A DNA stretch of 64,000 bases from Tenacibaculum ovolyticum DSM 18103 (GTDB lineage Bacteria; Bacteroidota; Bacteroidia; Flavobacteriales; Flavobacteriaceae). Where the stretch lies: positions 1 to 64,000 of the forward strand of contig NZ_AUMF01000016.1 of the NCBI RefSeq assembly GCF_000430545.1, given 5' to 3'. The position numbers were made by a program, and so were the translations under genes. The notes under the pieces are model-generated. The model was not told the DNA's origin. It did not search any database and saw nothing but the letters and a program-made list of their open reading frames with translations. Numbering within the stretch: position 1 is the first letter of the stretch; every line of letters starts with the position of its first letter. Of this stretch, positions 52,633 to 62,854 are shown piece after piece.

Positions 52633-52789
52633 CTTATGATAAAAAAAATATTCTGGTATTGCCTAAATAAGTAGTTTTTATCTAAAAAATAAAAGCTCAA
52701 AATACGAAGTAGTAGCATTTTGAGCCTAGAATAAAATTGTATAAACTTAATGAAGAACTTATTTGGGGTTTACCTCAGTTTTTTGTTGT
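52633..52789 (+). mobile_element. Fossil 3' end of an IS110-type element
   Basis: This 157-base segment aligns without gaps to 56233-56389, the 3' end of the intact IS110 copy, exactly 3600 bases away. It includes the last transposase codons (AYDKKNILVLPK then TAA, against TYDEKYVSVLSK in the intact gene), the GCTCAAAATA hairpin and the end TTTGTTGT. Both copies lose similarity at the same base, which marks the element's right terminus. The rest of this copy has been lost. Confidence 0.85.
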
Positions 52790-52847
52790 CCAACGTTATT
52801 CTTGTAACAAATAATTATTTTTATCGTCTTCAGATTAAATAACTGAT

Positions 52848-53603
52848 ATGAATTACCCACTAATCAAACCTAAATATTACTTCTCTTTATTTAAAGAAAT
52901 TCTCCACTTCATTAAAAATCCTACAAACGATAAAAACAGCACAAAATCAACAAAGCAGAAAATTTTTGATACTATTGGTTTACTGATTTTAAAAATGCTT
53001 TTCTTGATTCCTGTTGTTTTGTTTTTTGCAGTTGTATATGATCCAGAAAACATACAAAAGGGAAATATGTCTGAACGTTTTACTCCAATTATACTTTTGT
53101 TAGTAGGAGTAGTAATTCTGCCGTTTCTTGAAGAAACTCTTTTTAGGCTTTCATTAATATTCAAACCCATTTATTTGGCTTTGACATCAAGTGTTTTTTG
53201 CTATTATATTTTGACTAAACTTGTATTTTATACCAAAATTAGCTCTGTAGATGAGAGTTTTTTTATAAGGATTGCTGTTTCAACTTCATTAGGAATAGTT
53301 CTTTATTTTATATTCAATATCAAGTCAATAAAAAATGGATTGATTATCTTTTGGAGTAATAACTTTAGAGGTATTTATTATATCGTTTGTTTGTTTTTTG
53401 CTTGGTTACATTACTCGAAATACGAGTTAAACTGGACTAATACTCTCTTACTTCCTATTCTAACTTTACCACAATTAATGAGTGCCATAATTTATGGATA
53501 TATTAGAGTATCTTTTGGATTTCGATATCCATTATTATTGCATATGTCAAATAATTTAATAGGGTTTAGCATGTCTTTTTTGCTATCTACAGATTTAATT
53601 TAA
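52848..53603 (+). CDS. CPBP (Abi) family intramembrane protease-like protein
   Basis: A 251-residue membrane protein with the three CPBP motifs: E95-E96-x3-R100 (LEETLFR), F184-x3-H188 and H232-x3-N236. About six hydrophobic helices. CPBP proteins are type II CAAX-prenyl endopeptidase relatives; in bacteria many are linked to bacteriocin immunity or phage abortive infection. It sits alone as a cassette in the accessory island, between the IS110 fossil and a palindromic repeat. Confidence 0.82.
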   Translation: MNYPLIKPKYYFSLFKEILHFIKNPTNDKNSTKSTKQKIFDTIGLLILKMLFLIPVVLFFAVVYDPENIQKGNMSERFTPIILLLVGVVILPFLEETLFRLSLIFKPIYLALTSSVFCYYILTKLVFYTKISSVDESFFIRIAVSTSLGIVLYFIFNIKSIKNGLIIFWSNNFRGIYYIVCLFFAWLHYSKYELNWTNTLLLPILTLPQLMSAIIYGYIRVSFGFRYPLLLHMSNNLIGFSMSFLLSTDLI

Positions 53604-54896: not shown

Positions 54897-55091
54897 GCTA
54901 ACGGTTAGTATAAGAAACGTAGGGCAGGTTATAAGTACTTTCGTTTCGGTTTATTACTGAGCTAAATATAAATATTTTGCTTCTATTTTTAGTTTAAATG
55001 CCAAATTTTATATTTAGCAGACTTCATAAATAAACACAGAACTTTGGAGTTAACACAAATGCCCTATGTTTTTTATACATCTTAAGTTAGC
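54897..55091. repeat. Long imperfect palindromic repeat, copy 1
   Basis: Bounded by GCTAAC (54897-54902) and its complement GTTAGC (55086-55091). GTATAAGAAACGTAGGGCA (54908-54926) pairs with TGCCCTATGTTTTTTATAC (55060-55078), and an inner GCTAAATATAAA/TTTATATTTAGC pair is present. The same design occurs at 58383-58577. It has no coding capacity. It may be a cassette boundary similar in form to integron attC sites, or a MITE. Confidence 0.75.
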
Positions 55092-55301: not shown

Positions 55302-56270
55302 ATGAATAAATATAAGGAAATTTTTGGAGTTGACATTAGCAAAGACGTATTTGATATTCATGGAAGTAAAAGCGGTCATGATCAATTTGAAAATAATGCA
55401 TCTGGTTTTAAGTCTTTTCTAAAAAGTCTTTCTAAAGAATCATTAGTTGTAATGGAAGCAACAGGTTATTATCATTATCGGTTAGCTCAGTTTTTATTTA
55501 AACAAAATATTTTAGTTTCAGTAGTAAACCCTTTATCAGTAAAGCGATTTATTCAAATGAAATTAGCTAAAGTAAAAACAGATAAAAGTGATGCAAAAGC
55601 TATTTGTGAATATGGTCAAATCAATGATGTTCCGTTATACAATGCACTAACGGATGTTCAAAGTGAATGCTTACAATTGTTTCGTTTAATGGATAGTTTT
55701 TTAAAGAAAAGAAGAGCAACAAAGAATAAAATACATGGAGAAGAGGTTTTAGGTATTCCATCAAAATGGGTTTATCGTTCTTTAAAAAGAGATAAAAAAC
55801 ATTTAGATAAAGAGTTAAAAGGAATTGAAGAAAGGTTATTGTCTCTAGTGAAAAAAGAGCAGCAAGTACAGTTAACATTATTAACAAGTATTCGAGGAAT
55901 CGGGCTTAAAACAGCTTTATTTATGCTTATAATCACCGATGGTTTTACCAAGTTTGAAAGCTCGAAACAACTTTGTAGTTATGTTGGTATAACGCCTACA
56001 ATACGAGAGTCAGGGAGTAGTGTAAGAGGTCGAAGTAGCATAAGTAAAGTTGGTAATAGAAAGTTACGGAATCTTTTGTTTTTATGTTCCTTTAATGCAT
56101 GCAAACACAATAAAGCATGTAGAGATATTTATGAGCGTATTGTAAACAAAGGGAAGAGTAAAAAACTAGCTTTAATAGCTGTTTCAAATAAGTTAATCAA
56201 ACAAAGTTTTGCTATTGCAAAATCGGGTTTAACTTATGATGAAAAGTATGTTTCCGTTTTGTCAAAGTAA
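55302..56270 (+). CDS. IS110-family transposase (bridge-RNA-guided recombinase type)
   Basis: A 322-residue protein with the N-terminal RuvC-like DEDD domain (D11 in GVDISKDVFD, E52 in VVMEATGYY, D94 and D97 in KTDKSDAK) and the C-terminal transposase domain with TSIRGIGLKTA, CSYVGITPTIRESGSS (conserved serine near 237) and SKVGNRKLRNLLF. Both domains are complete, so the enzyme may be active. IS110 recombinases act with a bridge RNA encoded at the element's end. Confidence 0.94.
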   Translation: MNKYKEIFGVDISKDVFDIHGSKSGHDQFENNASGFKSFLKSLSKESLVVMEATGYYHYRLAQFLFKQNILVSVVNPLSVKRFIQMKLAKVKTDKSDAKAICEYGQINDVPLYNALTDVQSECLQLFRLMDSFLKKRRATKNKIHGEEVLGIPSKWVYRSLKRDKKHLDKELKGIEERLLSLVKKEQQVQLTLLTSIRGIGLKTALFMLIITDGFTKFESSKQLCSYVGITPTIRESGSSVRGRSSISKVGNRKLRNLLFLCSFNACKHNKACRDIYERIVNKGKSKKLALIAVSNKLIKQSFAIAKSGLTYDEKYVSVLSK

Positions 56271-56406
56271 GTAGTGTTTATCAAAAAAATAAAAGCTCAA
56301 AATACCAAGTAGTAGCATTTTGAGCCTAGAATAATATTGTATAAATTTAATGAAGAATTTGTTTGGTTTTTACCTCAGTTCTTTGTTGTATGTCGTTTTT
56401 TATTCA

Positions 56407-57072
56407 TTAAATAATAGCGTTTTGTCGAATAATTCGATTTCCATTAATGTCTAATGAATAATAGGTTCCATCAAAAGAATCTCTTATTGCTGTTATCACT
56501 TCTGGCTCACCACTAAATATTTTTATCCAAATTGAATAAAACCCACTTCCCTTGGCAGTAAGTGCAATTTGATTTGCCATTTCTGGTGTTGATTTACAAT
56601 TCCAGTTTTCCAGAGATTTTTTGGCAATTAACCAAGCTTGAAGTCTAAAAATCCATCTTGAATCTGCATCAGTTGGTTCATTAGGAAAACCAGGATTCCT
56701 ATCCAACCCCATAAGTTCTATGGTATTTAAAGCTTCTATTTGAATATTGGCATTAAGAACTCCAATTCCAGCAGTCTCAGAATAATCAAAAGCTAAGTCT
56801 GAATTATCTTTATCAGGCCATATATAACCATTTCTGGATGGATTACGAGCTCCTTTAATAGTATTACAATATTTACAAGACAGCAGAAGATTGTCCCAGC
56901 TTAGTGGATCACCTCCATTGTTACGGGGAACTATATGTTCTACTTCTATCATATTGGTAATAGGCATTTCACAATATGAACAATACCATCCAATTTGTTT
57001 TCCTAAATCATTTCTTGCTTCCTTGTATTGATTGTAATTTTTAGGAGCGGTTCCTTTATCTACTGGTCTCAT
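56407..57072 (-). CDS. HNH endonuclease, PtuB-like (Septu defence)
   Basis: A 221-residue nuclease. The zinc/HNH core is C31-x2-C34, EVEHIVPRNNGG (H46), WDNLLLSCKYCN (N61, C66, C69). The N-terminal MRPVDKGTAPKNYNQYKEAR resembles the retron/Septu-associated HNH family. It directly follows an AAA ATPase gene whose stop overlaps its start by one base. That pairing is the PtuA-PtuB layout of the Septu antiphage system, in which the nuclease degrades nucleic acid when the ATPase is triggered. Confidence 0.82.
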   Translation of the reverse strand: MRPVDKGTAPKNYNQYKEARNDLGKQIGWYCSYCEMPITNMIEVEHIVPRNNGGDPLSWDNLLLSCKYCNTIKGARNPSRNGYIWPDKDNSDLAFDYSETAGIGVLNANIQIEALNTIELMGLDRNPGFPNEPTDADSRWIFRLQAWLIAKKSLENWNCKSTPEMANQIALTAKGSGFYSIWIKIFSGEPEVITAIRDSFDGTYYSLDINGNRIIRQNAII

Positions 57073-58349
57073 TAATCTTTAGAATTTTTTATTCTTTCTT
57101 GTTCCAATAGAGCATCAAATGCAGGATTCATAGAAAATGGCTTTAATAATTTTGAAAGTTTATTTTTATCTTCATTGTTGATTTTATCACCTTTGGAAAT
57201 GGCAGATAAATAACCCTTAGCTGAATTATAGAGTTCTGTTTTTTTATTACTCCATTGTGGCATTTCTATTTTTTGCAAAAATTCAGCAATGTCTTCTATA
57301 CTTAGGTCACTAGCTCCTTGTATTCTACTTAAAGAACAATTATCCAAAACAATCAGCTGATTCATACTTGCTTCTTGAATAAGAAATGGAGAATGAGTAG
57401 TTACAATAAATTGGGTTTTAGGGAAATTCTCTAAAAGTTTATTTAATACTGTCTTTTGCCATTTAGGGTGTAAGTGTAAATCTAGTTCGTCTATTAAGAC
57501 AATACCGGGAGTGTTTTCAAATACAGTAGCTCCTAAGTGTGGGTTAAGTTTGGCATATCTCCAGGCCAAATCTGAAATCAAAGCAAAGAAGCTTCTTAAT
57601 CCATCACTTAGAAAATTGAATGGCAGAATTCTACCATCATTAAATTTCAAACTTACCCCACGATTTATATCAGGATTGAAATCATAAAAAACATCAGAAC
57701 AATCAGGTATAGATTTTATGATAATATTCTTGACGACCTCAAATGAATCATCTTTTTCTTTTCTTTGCATTTGAGACAACTCTTTCGAAATAAACCAGTA
57801 ATTAAAGTATTCTAAATCTGCAAGAGCATTTAAACTTCCGATATATCCTCTAAATCTTGAGCCAATTCCTTTCGGTTTTCTAATTAAACTTTCTAATTTT
57901 CTAGGTTTGATAAAGGCATTGTTTCGAAGTGATGAGTAAGATGCTATTACTGGAAGAATTACCTCCTTGTTTTGTCTGACATTGTCTTGTAAGGTTGCTC
58001 CAATTTCTTTGAAAATATTTGATTTTCTTGTTTGCGCTCCACCGTTAATAGATTCTTTATTCCTTGTCCATTCGATGTGTCTATCATTGAATAAACCTGA
58101 TGAAGTAACCTTTAATGGCAATGCATATTCTTGATTAGGAAGAATCCTAATTTGTTCTTGCTTTACTGTAGATACAGGTACGTGTTGGATTCCAACAAAT
58201 AAAGAACCTATTGCTAGATTAATAGCTTCTAAAACAGCTGTTTTTCCACTTCCATTATCTCCAATGATAATATTAAGATTTGAATCTAGTTCTAGATTTA
58301 GTTCTTCAATACCACGAAAATTTGTTATCGAAATGGATTTAAGTTTCAT
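57072..58349 (-). CDS. AAA ATPase, PtuA-like (Septu defence)
   Basis: A 425-residue SMC/OLD-like ATPase: Walker A GDNGSGKT (30-37), a signature-like FLSDGLRSF (246-254), Walker B IVLIDELDLHLHP (283-295) and the H-loop TTHSPF (317-322). No TOPRIM domain follows, so it is not an OLD nuclease; the nuclease is the separate HNH gene downstream with a one-base overlap. This is the Septu PtuAB arrangement. No reverse transcriptase is nearby, so it is not a retron Ec78-type operon. The cassette is flanked by GTTGTATGTC (56385-56394) and its complement (58383-58392). Confidence 0.85.
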   Translation of the reverse strand: MKLKSISITNFRGIEELNLELDSNLNIIIGDNGSGKTAVLEAINLAIGSLFVGIQHVPVSTVKQEQIRILPNQEYALPLKVTSSGLFNDRHIEWTRNKESINGGAQTRKSNIFKEIGATLQDNVRQNKEVILPVIASYSSLRNNAFIKPRKLESLIRKPKGIGSRFRGYIGSLNALADLEYFNYWFISKELSQMQRKEKDDSFEVVKNIIIKSIPDCSDVFYDFNPDINRGVSLKFNDGRILPFNFLSDGLRSFFALISDLAWRYAKLNPHLGATVFENTPGIVLIDELDLHLHPKWQKTVLNKLLENFPKTQFIVTTHSPFLIQEASMNQLIVLDNCSLSRIQGASDLSIEDIAEFLQKIEMPQWSNKKTELYNSAKGYLSAISKGDKINNEDKNKLSKLLKPFSMNPAFDALLEQERIKNSKD

Positions 58350-58382: not shown

Positions 58383-58577
58383 GACATACAACGTTTCGTA
58401 TAATAAACGTAGGGTAGGTTAGAAGCACTATGTTTAGTTTTATTACTTAGCTAAATATAAATATTTTGATTTTATTTTTTACTTAAAAGACCAATTTTAT
58501 ATTTAGCGGACTTTCTTAATATTTCTAATGTTCAAATTTAACAGAATTGCCCTATGTTTTTTATACTTTGTTGGCAG
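58383..58577. repeat. Long imperfect palindromic repeat, copy 2
   Basis: GTATAATAAACGTAGGG (58398-58414) pairs with GCCCTATGTTTTTTATAC (58549-58566); the outer ends CAACG and TTGTTGGC are also partly complementary. The internal GCTAAATATAAATATTTT and TTTATATTTAGC are shared with copy 1 at 54897. It separates the Septu pair from the NTPase/HEPN pair. Confidence 0.75.
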
Positions 58578-58595: not shown

Positions 58596-59423
58596 TTAAG
58601 ATAGTTGGTATTCAGTCTTAATTAGGTTTTTACATTTAACCCAACTACCAGATTCAGGAATTGTATTGTTAGCCTTGTCAATTTTAGAATGGAAAATTCG
58701 CCATGTCTTCTTGAAATATTCATTTTCTATTTCAGTTGTCCAAGTTGGATTACGCCATGAAGTAGCCCATCTATTAGCCATAACTTCAAATAATTTTTGA
58801 TTATACGAAACAACGAGTGTAGTGCAAATTGAAGCAATCTTCTGCAATTGTCCGTAACCAATAGTTATGAATTGTTCTTTATTTGAAGATGGTAAATCTA
58901 ACATTAGAGCATTTTTTCCAGCTAAAATTCTTGCTGAATGTACTATTCCATGTCTTAATTCACAAATTTTATTAAATTCATTGAGAATAGGAACTAAATC
59001 GCTTTTGTTTAATTCTGTTCCAATGTATTTGCGTGTCATTTCTATTATTTTTTTTGAATCTGAAAACGATACGTGTTCAAATGCACCTCGCTCTATTGAT
59101 TCATTTGGATGCCATAAAACAGATCCAAAATTTATGTTGTTTTCGGCAGCTTTTTTCTTTGATTGTGGGCAAATGATAATCATTTTACCTAATATAGATC
59201 GAAAATAATTTTCGGTAGTTGAAATTATTGCTATAGCGTTCATAGAACCATGCCAATCTGTTGAAACCATAGATGGTGCACTAAGAGCTAGTATTGTTCT
59301 GACCTCATTGTAAAAGTCATCAATAGGGGAATTACCAGAATTCATTTTATCTTGAACAAAATCAGTAAGATTACCAAGTTGTTCTTGTCCTACAGTTTGT
59401 GATATGAGTTTTTTCCAATCCAT
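58596..59423 (-). CDS. HEPN-type protein with RX4H motif, paired with NTPase
   Basis: A 275-residue mostly helical protein. ICELRHGIVHSARIL contains R157-x4-H162, the RX4-6H signature of HEPN ribonucleases, in a helix-rich context typical of the fold. No signal peptide or membrane helix. Its start overlaps the stop of the NTPase gene by one base (59423), so the two are made together. By analogy with other NTPase-HEPN pairs it could be a toxic RNase unleashed by the NTPase. The family is not one I can name, and the activity is inferred. Confidence 0.68.
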   Translation of the reverse strand: MDWKKLISQTVGQEQLGNLTDFVQDKMNSGNSPIDDFYNEVRTILALSAPSMVSTDWHGSMNAIAIISTTENYFRSILGKMIIICPQSKKKAAENNINFGSVLWHPNESIERGAFEHVSFSDSKKIIEMTRKYIGTELNKSDLVPILNEFNKICELRHGIVHSARILAGKNALMLDLPSSNKEQFITIGYGQLQKIASICTTLVVSYNQKLFEVMANRWATSWRNPTWTTEIENEYFKKTWRIFHSKIDKANNTIPESGSWVKCKNLIKTEYQLS

Positions 59424-61111
59424 TAAGCAAAAAATTCTTCAGCGTAAGACTTAATTCTATTTGCCCATTTTGGTCCAATTTGAGGTACCATTCGTAACTG
59501 TTTATTATCAGTATCCATTAATAAATCTTTTATACAATTGATATTTGAATTCTCTTTAATAGAGTTTGCTCTGTTAATTGTAATTGGTAATAATGTAATG
59601 TCTTGTTTAACAATACTTTCAAATATTGAGGCATCTTTTAATTTTGTTCCACAACTAGAACAAAATTTAGACTCTTCCGAAATTCTTGGTGTATTACAAT
59701 TAGGACATGCAGGTAAAGAAAGCTTAAACGTAGTGTCACCATCCAATTCAGAGAGTATACCACTGACAGAATATCTAGGGTAATGATGGTTTGGTCTATT
59801 TGCAAAAGCAATACTGTATTTTTCTACATTTACACCTCTACTACTGAAAAAGACATTACGATCAATAATACCTGAATAGTGTAATTCATAAAGTTCATAA
59901 GCTCCTTTGTCTCCACGGTTACTTATACCTTGATATGAAACTAAGCCAGCATATTGAAAGAATCCTAAAACTTTTGTTAGCTCAGATGGAACTGGGCGTT
60001 GTATAGCGATTATTCCACTTTGTTTTTCTGGACTTCCTCCTTTATTAAAGTCTTTATTAATACTAAGAAAACGTTCATAAACACTTCCACCTATGTCTAT
60101 GAACCTTTCATACATAGGAAGTTTTATTCGTAATGAATCATATATTTGATATGTGCGATTGAAATTATCTTTAATAACTCTTAAAACTTCTTTGTTTGTG
60201 AGTTTGATTGTAAAGCTAGTGTCAGAAATATCTGACTTGTAGAATTTTGAGATCATATTCAATAACGACCTTGGTATACCATAAGCAGCGAAACATAATA
60301 AATTTAAATTATTTTTAGTTTCTAGAAGCTTATTAAATGGAATTTCTCCTATTCTTGTCTTTAATAAAGAGTGCATGAATTCAAGATATCCTTCGGAAGT
60401 AGGTTTTAACCAAACATCTATTTCTTCAGCATCATGTCCAATGTGGAATGAAGAAGAATAATTTGTTACTCCAGGATATACTGCGGCTTTTGGAGAAATA
60501 ATCTTTGTCTTGAGTTCTCTAAAAAATTCAAAGAAATCTTGCTGTTGTTCAGAAGAGAATGCGTGACCAGCATCATCTAGTAAAAGAACACATCTAGTTA
60601 AATTTAGTTCTTTGACTACAATTTCAATCGTTTCAATTAATAGAGCAGAAGTGAGGGTTTCACTTTGAATGTCATCGATATTTCCTAGTTCTAATAATTT
60701 GATTACTGACTCAATTCGACCTTTATTCTTAAAAGGTTTTACTTCAATATTTTTGAAGTTTTTATTCTCTAATGATTCATATAAACCGAAAAGAACTTTA
60801 TAAAGTAACCATTGATTAAACCAATGTGCAGCGTTAGTGTTATTTCTATATAAAGGTTCTAATTTTAAAGATGATTTATAATTGACATAAATAGGCAAAG
60901 CTTTTGAATTCGAATCATTAAGTAATTTCTGATTAACTTTAAGTAATAATGTTGTTTTACCACATCCTCTAGGACCAGTAATTAGTTTAGCTCCAGCTTG
61001 ACTAAGTTTTCGTATAATATTTCCTTCTTCATGTAAGGTAGTTGCCCATTTTTCAAATGAGTCTTGTGAAAGGTATTCAGCTTGTTCAGTAAAAACTTCT
61101 TCGTTAATCAT
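59423..61111 (-). CDS. P-loop NTPase with zinc ribbon and C-terminal HhH-like segment
   Basis: A 562-residue protein. Walker A GPRGCGKT (46-53) and Walker B VLLLDD (175-180) with a following AGHAFSSEQQQDFF place it near ORC/STAND-like AAA ATPases. A winged-helix-like middle region leads to a zinc ribbon (C469-x2-C472, C484-x2-C487) and a C-terminal PQIGPKWANRIKSYAEEFFA that looks like a helix-hairpin-helix. The zinc ribbon and HhH suggest nucleic acid recognition. It is the first gene of a two-gene operon with a HEPN protein in a defence-like island. I do not recognise a named system with this layout. Confidence 0.72.
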   Translation of the reverse strand: MINEEVFTEQAEYLSQDSFEKWATTLHEEGNIIRKLSQAGAKLITGPRGCGKTTLLLKVNQKLLNDSNSKALPIYVNYKSSLKLEPLYRNNTNAAHWFNQWLLYKVLFGLYESLENKNFKNIEVKPFKNKGRIESVIKLLELGNIDDIQSETLTSALLIETIEIVVKELNLTRCVLLLDDAGHAFSSEQQQDFFEFFRELKTKIISPKAAVYPGVTNYSSSFHIGHDAEEIDVWLKPTSEGYLEFMHSLLKTRIGEIPFNKLLETKNNLNLLCFAAYGIPRSLLNMISKFYKSDISDTSFTIKLTNKEVLRVIKDNFNRTYQIYDSLRIKLPMYERFIDIGGSVYERFLSINKDFNKGGSPEKQSGIIAIQRPVPSELTKVLGFFQYAGLVSYQGISNRGDKGAYELYELHYSGIIDRNVFFSSRGVNVEKYSIAFANRPNHHYPRYSVSGILSELDGDTTFKLSLPACPNCNTPRISEESKFCSSCGTKLKDASIFESIVKQDITLLPITINRANSIKENSNINCIKDLLMDTDNKQLRMVPQIGPKWANRIKSYAEEFFA

Positions 61112-61372: not shown

Positions 61373-61417
61373 TATGTGTAGAATTAAACGTTTAATAGAC
61401 GTTTAATTCTACACATA
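61373..61417. repeat. 19-bp perfect palindrome
   Basis: TATGTGTAGAATTAAACGT (61373-61391) and its exact complement (61399-61417) surround a 7-base loop. There is no T-run, so it is not a standard terminator. Confidence 0.7.
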
Positions 61418-61487: not shown

Positions 61488-61580
61488 AATTTGTACAGTT
61501 TTTTTTAAGATAGTTTTTTATGTACAAGAGTGCAGTGTTCAATGTACAGTTTTTAATGGATTAGAAAAAACTGTACAAAT
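61488..61580. repeat. Four TGTACA sites in mirror-symmetric spacing
   Basis: TGTACA occurs at 61492, 61521, 61543 and 61572, spaced 29, 22 and 29 bases. The outer pair lies in the inverted repeat ATTTGTACAGTTTTTT/AAAAAACTGTACAAAT. It could be a large hairpin or a set of operator half-sites. Confidence 0.6.
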
Positions 61581-62380: not shown

Positions 62381-62854
62381 TTAATATTCAATTTTATCTT
62401 GTTTCTCAGTCCATTTTTCAAAAGGCTCTAAGGCAATTTTTCTTCCAATTTGTTCAAACGGAATACTTCTTTTTTCATATGGTAATGGAATCTCTTTATA
62501 AATAAATTCATCATCAAAACCTATGTTAGCCGCATCTTGTTGGTTACTACCGTAATATACTTTATCTGGTCTGGCCCAATAAATAGCACCTAAACACATT
62601 GGGCAAGGTTCGCAAGAAGTATAAACAATACAACCGTCTAACTGAAAAGAACCAATGTTTTTACAAGCATCTCTAATAGCAGTTACCTCAGCATGTGCAG
62701 TAGGATCGTTTGTTGAAGTAACTTTGTTATTTCCACGACCTATAATTTTTCCGTCTTTTACAACAATACAACCAAAGGGACCTCCTTCATTATTACTCAT
62801 TCCTTTTAAAGCTGCTTTTACAGCTTCACTCATATACTCTTCGTGTTTATTCAT
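62381..62854 (-). CDS. guaD: Nucleoside/guanine deaminase
   Basis: A 157-residue zinc deaminase: HAEVTAI (H54, E56) and PCPMC (zinc C84 and C87). GPFGCIVVKDGKIIGRGNN and the C-terminal IPLPYEKRSIPFEQIGRK fit the bacterial guanine deaminase (GuaD) form more than tRNA adenosine deaminase TadA. It converts guanine to xanthine for purine salvage. Single-gene unit with its own terminator. Confidence 0.85.
   Translation of the reverse strand: MNKHEEYMSEAVKAALKGMSNNEGGPFGCIVVKDGKIIGRGNNKVTSTNDPTAHAEVTAIRDACKNIGSFQLDGCIVYTSCEPCPMCLGAIYWARPDKVYYGSNQQDAANIGFDDEFIYKEIPLPYEKRSIPFEQIGRKIALEPFEKWTEKQDKIEY

Follow-up and report, generated by a model that had tools for sequence, protein, structure and literature searches.

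Two adjacent genes of Tenacibaculum ovolyticum DSM 18103, one for a P-loop nucleoside triphosphatase (NTPase) and one for a small HEPN-like protein, are likely to constitute a single unnamed anti-invader module in which the NTPase gates a HEPN ribonuclease (RNase) and which, in the larger clade of its family, works in a manner like restriction–modification (R–M). They lie in the window, by which we mean the whole analysed stretch of 64,000 nucleotides (contig NZ_AUMF01000016.1, positions 1 to 64,000). RNA cleavage, its control by the NTPase and a function in defence are steps that we infer beyond the computed folds, sites, pairing, linkage, distribution and mobility. The genes are:

59423-61111, minus strand: NTPase gene (gene 1), an open reading frame (ORF) of 562 amino acids
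58596-59423, minus strand: gene for the HEPN-like predicted RNase (gene 2), an ORF of 275 amino acids

Base 59423 is common to the stop codon of the NTPase gene and the ATG of the HEPN gene (TAATG), giving a one-base overlap. An original prediction made from the DNA letters alone had proposed these two coupled ORFs, and their coordinates, strand and one-base overlap were all borne out by an ORF check.

Pairing and anatomy of the two proteins

The NTPase and the HEPN-like protein form one linked module, and the pairing is real. Among 44 loci examined for pairing, 38 encode a full-length close NTPase, and in every one of these (near-copies included, among the matches listed) the HEPN gene follows directly. 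It is intact in 36 of the 38; in L010 it is split, and in L011 an inserted ORF interrupts it. The remaining six loci are (i) the window itself (L001), (ii) the plasmid remnants L003 and L004, (iii) L027, where the NTPase is cut by the contig end and the HEPN gene stands beside it, (iv) L028, an NTPase fragment without a HEPN gene and (v) the divergent L008. Searches begun from the HEPN side gave the same picture: a scan of viral contigs confirmed 12 loci, all 12 on contigs already known from the NTPase and with the NTPase adjacent; and three new genomic matches (L062, L063 and L065), in two new genomes from a survey of 399 genomes of one order and as a second copy in G491, each have an NTPase beside them. 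Linkage of the two homologues, which the original prediction had made a test of itself, therefore holds in 38/38 loci, several of them beside modification or defence genes.

Two of these loci deserve a comment of their own. L065 (2949-5388) is a second NTPase–HEPN pair in the genome of L015, and the start of its NTPase resembles those of L032 and L033 by eye. In L011 (10668-13111), the ORF that interrupts the HEPN gene has 411 amino acids and is a putative IS110-type transposase; the L011 NTPase is identical to that of L014, a copy embedded in a BREX operon.

The window NTPase belongs to the STAND/ORC-CDC6 clade and has a P-loop core with intact Walker A and B motifs. The Pfam family PF24389 (ORC-CDC6-like) scores 40.7 bits over the whole protein against a cut-off of 27, the best single stretch in the genome search reaching 24.6 bits, below that cut-off, and the family is matched by 32/32 NTPase homologues at E ≤ 0.001. 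Its features are:

60953-60976, minus strand: Walker A, GPRGCGKT, residues 46-53; G46, P47, R48, G49, G51 and K52 invariant in 32/32 homologues
60572-60589, minus strand: Walker B, VLLLDD, residues 175-180; D179, D180 and A181 invariant in 32/32
59639-59707, minus strand: zinc ribbon, residues 469-491; C469, C472, C484 and C487 invariant in 32/32; Zn_Ribbon_1 E 7.5e-5
59447-59599, minus strand: helix-hairpin-helix (HhH)-like tail, about residues 505-555; weak in the window protein

The unvarying Walker residues and four cysteines uphold the P-loop NTPase with zinc ribbon of the original prediction, the zinc ribbon of the window protein scoring slightly below the Pfam cut-off (22.8 versus 25 bits). 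The HhH-like tail, also predicted, fared less well: its signal in the window protein is weak (RuvA profile, E 0.14; RNA polymerase alpha, E 0.51), and Pfam HHH_5 matches 2 of the 32 homologues at E ≤ 1e-3. Zinc ribbon and tail probably bind nucleic acid. The structure model of the NTPase (mean predicted local distance difference test score (pLDDT) 87.5) best matches the archaeal ATPases 2qen (Z 16.5, root-mean-square deviation (rmsd) 4.4, 321 residues) and 2fna (Z 15.2, rmsd 4.7, 319 residues), followed by plant NLRs, CED-4, Cdc6 and TnsC and, lower, by BrxC and Avs3; the matches cover about residues 1-443. Foldseek with the same model ranked Cdc6/Orc1 proteins and a plant resistosome first. 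A PDB sequence search with the NTPase, as single sequence or as profile, returned no useful relative, and comparison of the NTPases with PHROGs gave matches to zinc-ribbon or P-loop families only.

As judged from its structure model (pLDDT 91.4; predicted template modelling score 0.88), the 275-residue protein is HEPN-like and a predicted RNase; the conserved site and its position are decisive for this assignment, and sequence profiles are indecisive. The model has helices at residues 33-47, 56-84, 144-162 and 190-223, with an insert at 86-134, and carries two motifs:

58938-58955, minus strand: predicted RNase motif R157-H158-G-I-V-H162, ending helix 144-162; R157, H158 and H162 invariant in 33/33 homologues
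59199-59213, minus strand: E71-x3-R75 motif in the predicted second core helix (56-84); invariant in 33/33

The 33 homologues share 19 to 42% identity with the window protein, and E71, R75, R157, H158, H162 and N208 are identical in all of them; the R157-x4-H162 that had drawn attention in the original prediction is present and is joined by H158. HEPN domains are described as having an R-x4-6-H that closes helix 3, its arginine followed by a polar residue (usually N, D or H), an Ex3[KR] whose acidic residue sits in helix 2, and, between these two helices, an insert (PMC3710099). Both R157-H158-x3-H162 and E71-x3-R75 are placed as in that description.

Structure prediction, the check for a HEPN fold proposed at the outset, points the same way in a comparison with VIA-align. 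Its first seven rows are 1ufb (Z 8.6, rmsd 3.2 over 121 residues), 2hsb (Z 7.6, rmsd 3.7 over 122), 6m6u (Z 7.2, rmsd 3.8 over 119), 5yep (6.9), 6m6w (6.7), 7bxo (6.6) and HepS, 9oik (6.4); rows 8 and 9 are ROQ domains, and row 10 is Csm6 (Z 5.5). The second of these structures is a HEPN protein by its title, and we take 1ufb, 6m6u, 5yep, 6m6w, 7bxo and 9oik to be HEPN-type proteins as well. Sequence comparisons were less informative. Of all Pfam families, HEPN_RiboL-PSP alone has matches in two or more of the 33 homologues; PADLOC Csx1 matches the window protein at E 0.012; a PDB search with the single sequence gave no useful relative; and three HEPN proteins compared with PHROGs matched no family at E ≤ 0.01.

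Two clades and a linked methyltransferase

The NTPase and HEPN trees agree in dividing the family into two deep clades, with support for the window's side of 100/100 (NTPase) and 100/98 (HEPN). The alignments A3 (33 rows) and A4 (32 rows) omit the plasmid loci L002-L007, the divergent L008 and the broken or near-copy loci L010, L011, L028 and L036, and A4 also omits the end-cut L027. An NTPase tree of 39 rows, made by a quick method, re-included L002, L005-L007, L010, L011 and L036 and places 13 rows on the window's side and 26 on the other.

The most informative feature of the family, overlooked in the original prediction, is a dedicated N6-adenine DNA methyltransferase (MTase) of roughly 400 amino acids in the sister clade, found in 25 of its 26 rows (the exception is L015). 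Its gene lies upstream on the same strand in 22 loci; in L016 it comes immediately after the HEPN gene and overlaps it, and in L017 and L034 it is divergent. Three loci (L006, L034 and L039) have it broken into two ORFs. All four copies tested exceed the cut-off of Pfam N6_Mtase and three of the four that of Eco57I, and NPPF/NPPY is present in 24/24 loci whose MTase ORF exceeds 300 bits. PADLOC, applied to a single copy (L019), gives a whole-protein match to a type II methyltransferase model (E 5.7e-80) and files this copy as a type II enzyme without a restriction partner. Because its C-terminal part (residues 262-401) matches a type I specificity model (E 6.1e-6), the L019 MTase may carry its own target-recognition domain.

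Pairwise distances within the three proteins are correlated (NTPase–HEPN, 0.875; NTPase–MTase, 0.595; HEPN–MTase, 0.705), with 0/2000 permutations as high; this test used 16 rows, leaving out the near-copies L036, L037, L038, L040 and L044, and L034 with its split MTase. The MTase of the sister clade suggests modification-linked sensing.

Modification genes also appear beside other members of the family. A type 1 BREX operon houses the L014 pair (Lachnospiraceae), which lies between its pglX and pglZ genes, the order being BrxC, PglX, the pair, PglZ and BrxL. In L009 the pair comes after two methylase genes, a truncated Eco57I methylase and one of C5 type, and in L032 a D12 methylase is encoded nearby on the opposite strand. 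Planktothrix has a divergent relative of the NTPase (L008, 6001-7614) in an Ssp/Pbe-type phosphorothioate island, where its neighbours are SspC, SspD and a PbeA-like helicase. With methylase, BREX and phosphorothioate neighbours, DNA-modification genes are therefore recurring company of the NTPase family. In a Clostridium locus (L013, 641-5427), two uncharacterised genes (992 and 597 amino acids) lie upstream of the pair, the first matching the PADLOC candidate PDC-M26A (E 1.2e-22).

A proposed mechanism and its alternatives

In immunity, STAND/ORC-CDC6-clade NTPases work as switches driven by NTP and as machines that act on nucleic acids, and HEPN RNases frequently serve as suicidal effectors (PMC3710099, PMC12839542, PMC8195603). 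Judging from its anatomy, the NTPase studied here would be both sensor and switch. The HEPN protein would be a metal-independent RNase, inactive or unassembled until the NTPase is triggered, and would then cut cellular RNA, so that growth stops before the invader spreads. In the sister clade, the MTase probably marks self DNA and the NTPase would fire on unmodified DNA only; the simplest reason for the methylase being kept there is that it hides self DNA from the sensor. Such an arrangement would follow R–M-like logic, with the RNase as the restricting arm. In the window's clade, the NTPase may read another signal, or it may use methylation supplied from elsewhere, by BREX or by the other methylases seen in relatives.

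These parts of the proposal are not equally probable. That methylation gates the module in the MTase-bearing clade seems to us an evenly balanced proposition, and for the window's own pair such gating is doubtful. We put forward only tentatively the most specific version, an unnamed R–M-like system in which the MTase marks self, the NTPase inspects DNA for the missing mark, unmarked DNA switches on the HEPN RNase and the cell halts, with the window's clade as a slimmed form that lacks the methylase and plugs into BREX or other systems. If it is true, some N6-adenine MTases now filed as partnerless type II enzymes have an RNA-cutting partner, and discrimination between self and non-self DNA is read out as RNA cleavage and growth arrest rather than DNA cutting, all within a compact family of two or three genes.

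Several results weigh against the module as proposed. A dedicated MTase in the locus, the hallmark of an R–M-like system and present in the sister clade, is found in 0/13 rows of the window's clade, of which L010, L031 and L032 have less than 2 kb upstream; the N6_Mtase ORF nearest to the window pair (615 amino acids, contig about 73971-75818) is about 12.9 kb away. The divergent relative L008 has no HEPN partner. The neighbourhood survey consisted of family searches on chosen proteins, and most solo loci were seen as ORF lists. As for the HEPN assignment, the top VIA-align Z of 8.6 (none was ≥ 8 before trimming) falls in a range that VIA-align flags for helical bundles, and unrelated helical proteins appear at Z 5.5 and lower. 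Foldseek with the HEPN model found no match at E ≤ 0.001 in PDB or BFVD (the best BFVD row, an uncharacterised phage protein, has E 2.6e-3), and a HEPN profile had no match at E ≤ 5 among PDB sequences. With HEPN_RiboL-PSP the window protein scores 10.9 bits, the cut-off being 28.4, and 6 of the 33 homologues match at E ≤ 1, the best at 0.0045 and none at ≤ 0.001. With the curated HEPN profile below its cut-off, we therefore word the claim as a HEPN-like fold and motif in a divergent family.

The alternative that survives best, although we think it improbable, is a toxin–antitoxin or addiction module, with the HEPN protein as toxin and the NTPase as its neutraliser or chaperone, serving the upkeep of plasmids or prophages without any sensing of invaders. 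Carriage on plasmids and viral contigs and the one-base overlap would be consistent with this, as would the plasmid copy L002, which lies near genes annotated as HipA-like and ParD/ParE, and the MntA–HepT type HEPN toxins among the best structural neighbours. However, the partner does not resemble a plain antitoxin, being an ATPase of 562 residues whose Walker motifs are intact and which carries a zinc ribbon and an HhH-like tail, and both the N6 DNA MTase that accompanies one clade (25/26) and the copy inside a BREX operon argue against a simple addiction function.

It is quite unlikely that the small protein is all-helical and merely resembles HEPN, its effector target being something other than RNA. 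The moderate Z scores, and the failure of the sequence and Foldseek searches just described to match any HEPN structure significantly, are what such a protein would give; yet the first seven structural rows are HEPN-type (2hsb by title, the others by our assignment), Csm6 follows in row 10, and the motif position, the polar residue after the arginine and the Ex3R helix agree with the published description (PMC3710099). Least probable of all is a replication or partition device, in which an ORC-CDC6-like ATPase would work on DNA of the mobile element itself and the helical protein would assist it without a catalytic role: the mobile location and the structural matches to ORC/Cdc6 and TnsC-like proteins would suit such a device, but R-H-x3-H and E-x3-R are invariant in 33/33 homologues without any obvious need in a non-catalytic helper, and one copy lies inside a BREX operon.

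An NTPase-gated HEPN RNase module with this layout would appear to be unnamed. The original prediction knew of no named system with exactly this layout, and no model in PADLOC-DB 2023 or NCBIfam June 2026 names the pair: the window proteins gave only short, low-scoring matches there, with no model covering most of either protein, and no named model was found for the relatives scanned (the L029 pair with PADLOC; the NTPase and HEPN proteins of L014, L019, L035 and L040 with NCBIfam). Nor is the pair described in the parts covered of the literature searched, whose scope did not extend to preprints, supplements or most subscription papers.

Among published architectures, the DUF499-centred BREX-related type 1 (Hma) family comes closest (PMC12839542). 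These systems likewise combine a STAND/ORC-Cdc6 ATPase, a DNA methylase and often a HEPN RNase, but there the HEPN is fused to the DUF499 ATPase and a helicase–nuclease is the main effector, whereas in the window's family the HEPN protein is a separate gene and a helicase or DNase is no fixed partner. The same paper also reports, in general terms, that BREX loci can have HEPN genes embedded in them, and L014 may be one of the cases that it does not list. HEPN RNases tied to R–M systems (Anantharaman et al. 2013, PMC3710099) are similar in having R-x4-H with a polar residue after the arginine, Ex3R, and a place beside an ATPase and, as in one clade here, a DNA methylase; they differ in that no NTPase partner of the ORC-CDC6/zinc-ribbon/HhH kind is listed in the parts of that paper covered, where MAE_28990-HEPN occurs with ParB and a methylase.

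Other known systems are more distant. MADS also combines a methylase and an ATPase, and its models match weakly both the window NTPase (PADLOC mad8, E 1.4e-4, residues 37-81) and the sister-clade MTase (mad2/MAD2/MAD5), but the scores are far under the NCBIfam cut-offs and the window proteins scanned include no further component of MADS. Septu (PtuAB) shares the two-gene design of ATPase plus nuclease, whereas its ATPase is of AAA_21/AAA_15 type and its partner an HNH protein; the NTPase–HEPN pair matches PtuA at the P-loop only (15.9 bits). None of BrxC, PglX and PglZ, which define BREX, was found among the seven window proteins scanned with PADLOC. The Planktothrix L008 island contains an ORC-CDC6-like relative of the NTPase (26.6% identity, residues 6-400; PF24389), but this relative has no zinc-ribbon family match, the HEPN partner is absent and the modification is phosphorothioation. 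Finally, DefensePredictor includes validated systems with HEPN and with P-loop domains (PMC13092281), and the family described here may overlap with them.

Distribution and genomic setting

Scans with the NTPase alignment gave at least 20 loci from genome contigs (584 candidate stretches) and 16 loci from viral contigs, to which plasmid searches added four intact pairs (L002, L005, L006 and L007) and 38 Piscirickettsia records. The two of these 38 records that were inspected (L003 and L004) hold a decayed pair, with an NTPase tail and a split HEPN gene, near terminase and portal genes. HEPN searches found the window's own genome alone among 97 near relatives (1/97) and among 395 genomes of the phylum (1/395). 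Surveys elsewhere gave 3/399 genomes of one order, the centre included; 3/391 of one class, namely the centre, one known genome and one spurious match; and 1/297 of another order, the centre itself. The spurious match, in G929 (E 2e-4), was rejected, its ORF being a putative unrelated phosphoesterase.

Nothing was confirmed in a scan of viral contigs with the single window HEPN sequence. INPHARED phage records had no match for either protein at the limits used, but predicted viral contigs of IMG/VR do carry the pair. By record titles and tree labels, the family spans five phyla (Bacteroidota, Bacillota, Verrucomicrobiota, Pseudomonadota and Myxococcota), and it is carried on chromosomes, plasmids and predicted viral contigs. 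Its rarity, its scattered occurrence and this mobile carriage give it the look of a module that moves horizontally.

In the window, a complete and separate Septu gene pair lies 246 bp downstream of the HEPN gene:

57072-58349: PtuA, PADLOC E 1.1e-109
56407-57072: PtuB, PADLOC E 1.1e-65

An IS110 transposase lies beyond it on the downstream side. Both the Septu-like neighbour and the mobile DNA had been anticipated in the original prediction, whereas the CPBP protease that it placed at 52848-53603 was not sustained: that protein matches no Pfam family at E ≤ 1e-3, and a CPBP-type NCBIfam model gives E 0.42. Upstream of the pair are genes for an HD-domain protein and a deaminase. An empty site was sought in five relatives. 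The deaminase (62381-62854) is kept in them at 90-93%, and no window gene from 49.9-61.2 kb lies on its 3′ side; in L084 that place is taken by the gene of 63070, and in L083 there is a 26% weak match to the gene at 24.5 kb. The region is therefore not syntenic, and a clean junction was not found. The idea of cassette boundaries with ACTGCCAACAACG-like ends was rejected, the exact word occurring once in the genome and in 0/14 relatives and the intergenic repeat folding little better than shuffled sequences (z -1.74).

Several repeats were noted between the genes. An intergenic element has two imperfect copies, at 54943-55078 (before IS110) and at 58432-58566 (between ptuA and the HEPN gene), with 83% identity over 90 nt and 93% over 29 nt. 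The 3′ end region of IS110 is repeated at 83% identity (52633-52815 versus 56233-56415), just before the gene at 52848, and the copy at 52633-52815 is perhaps an IS110 remnant. Two intergenic palindromes upstream of the NTPase gene, at 61373-61417 (22-bp arms, 1 nt apart) and 61489-61580 (20-bp arms, 52 nt apart), are possible terminators or regulatory sites. Beyond the window, the 615-residue Eco57I/N6 methylase is convergent with a gene for 277 amino acids that has no Pfam match (L060, 12175-14819; G000:C11, about 73.2-75.8 kb), and the two are perhaps a type II R–M pair.

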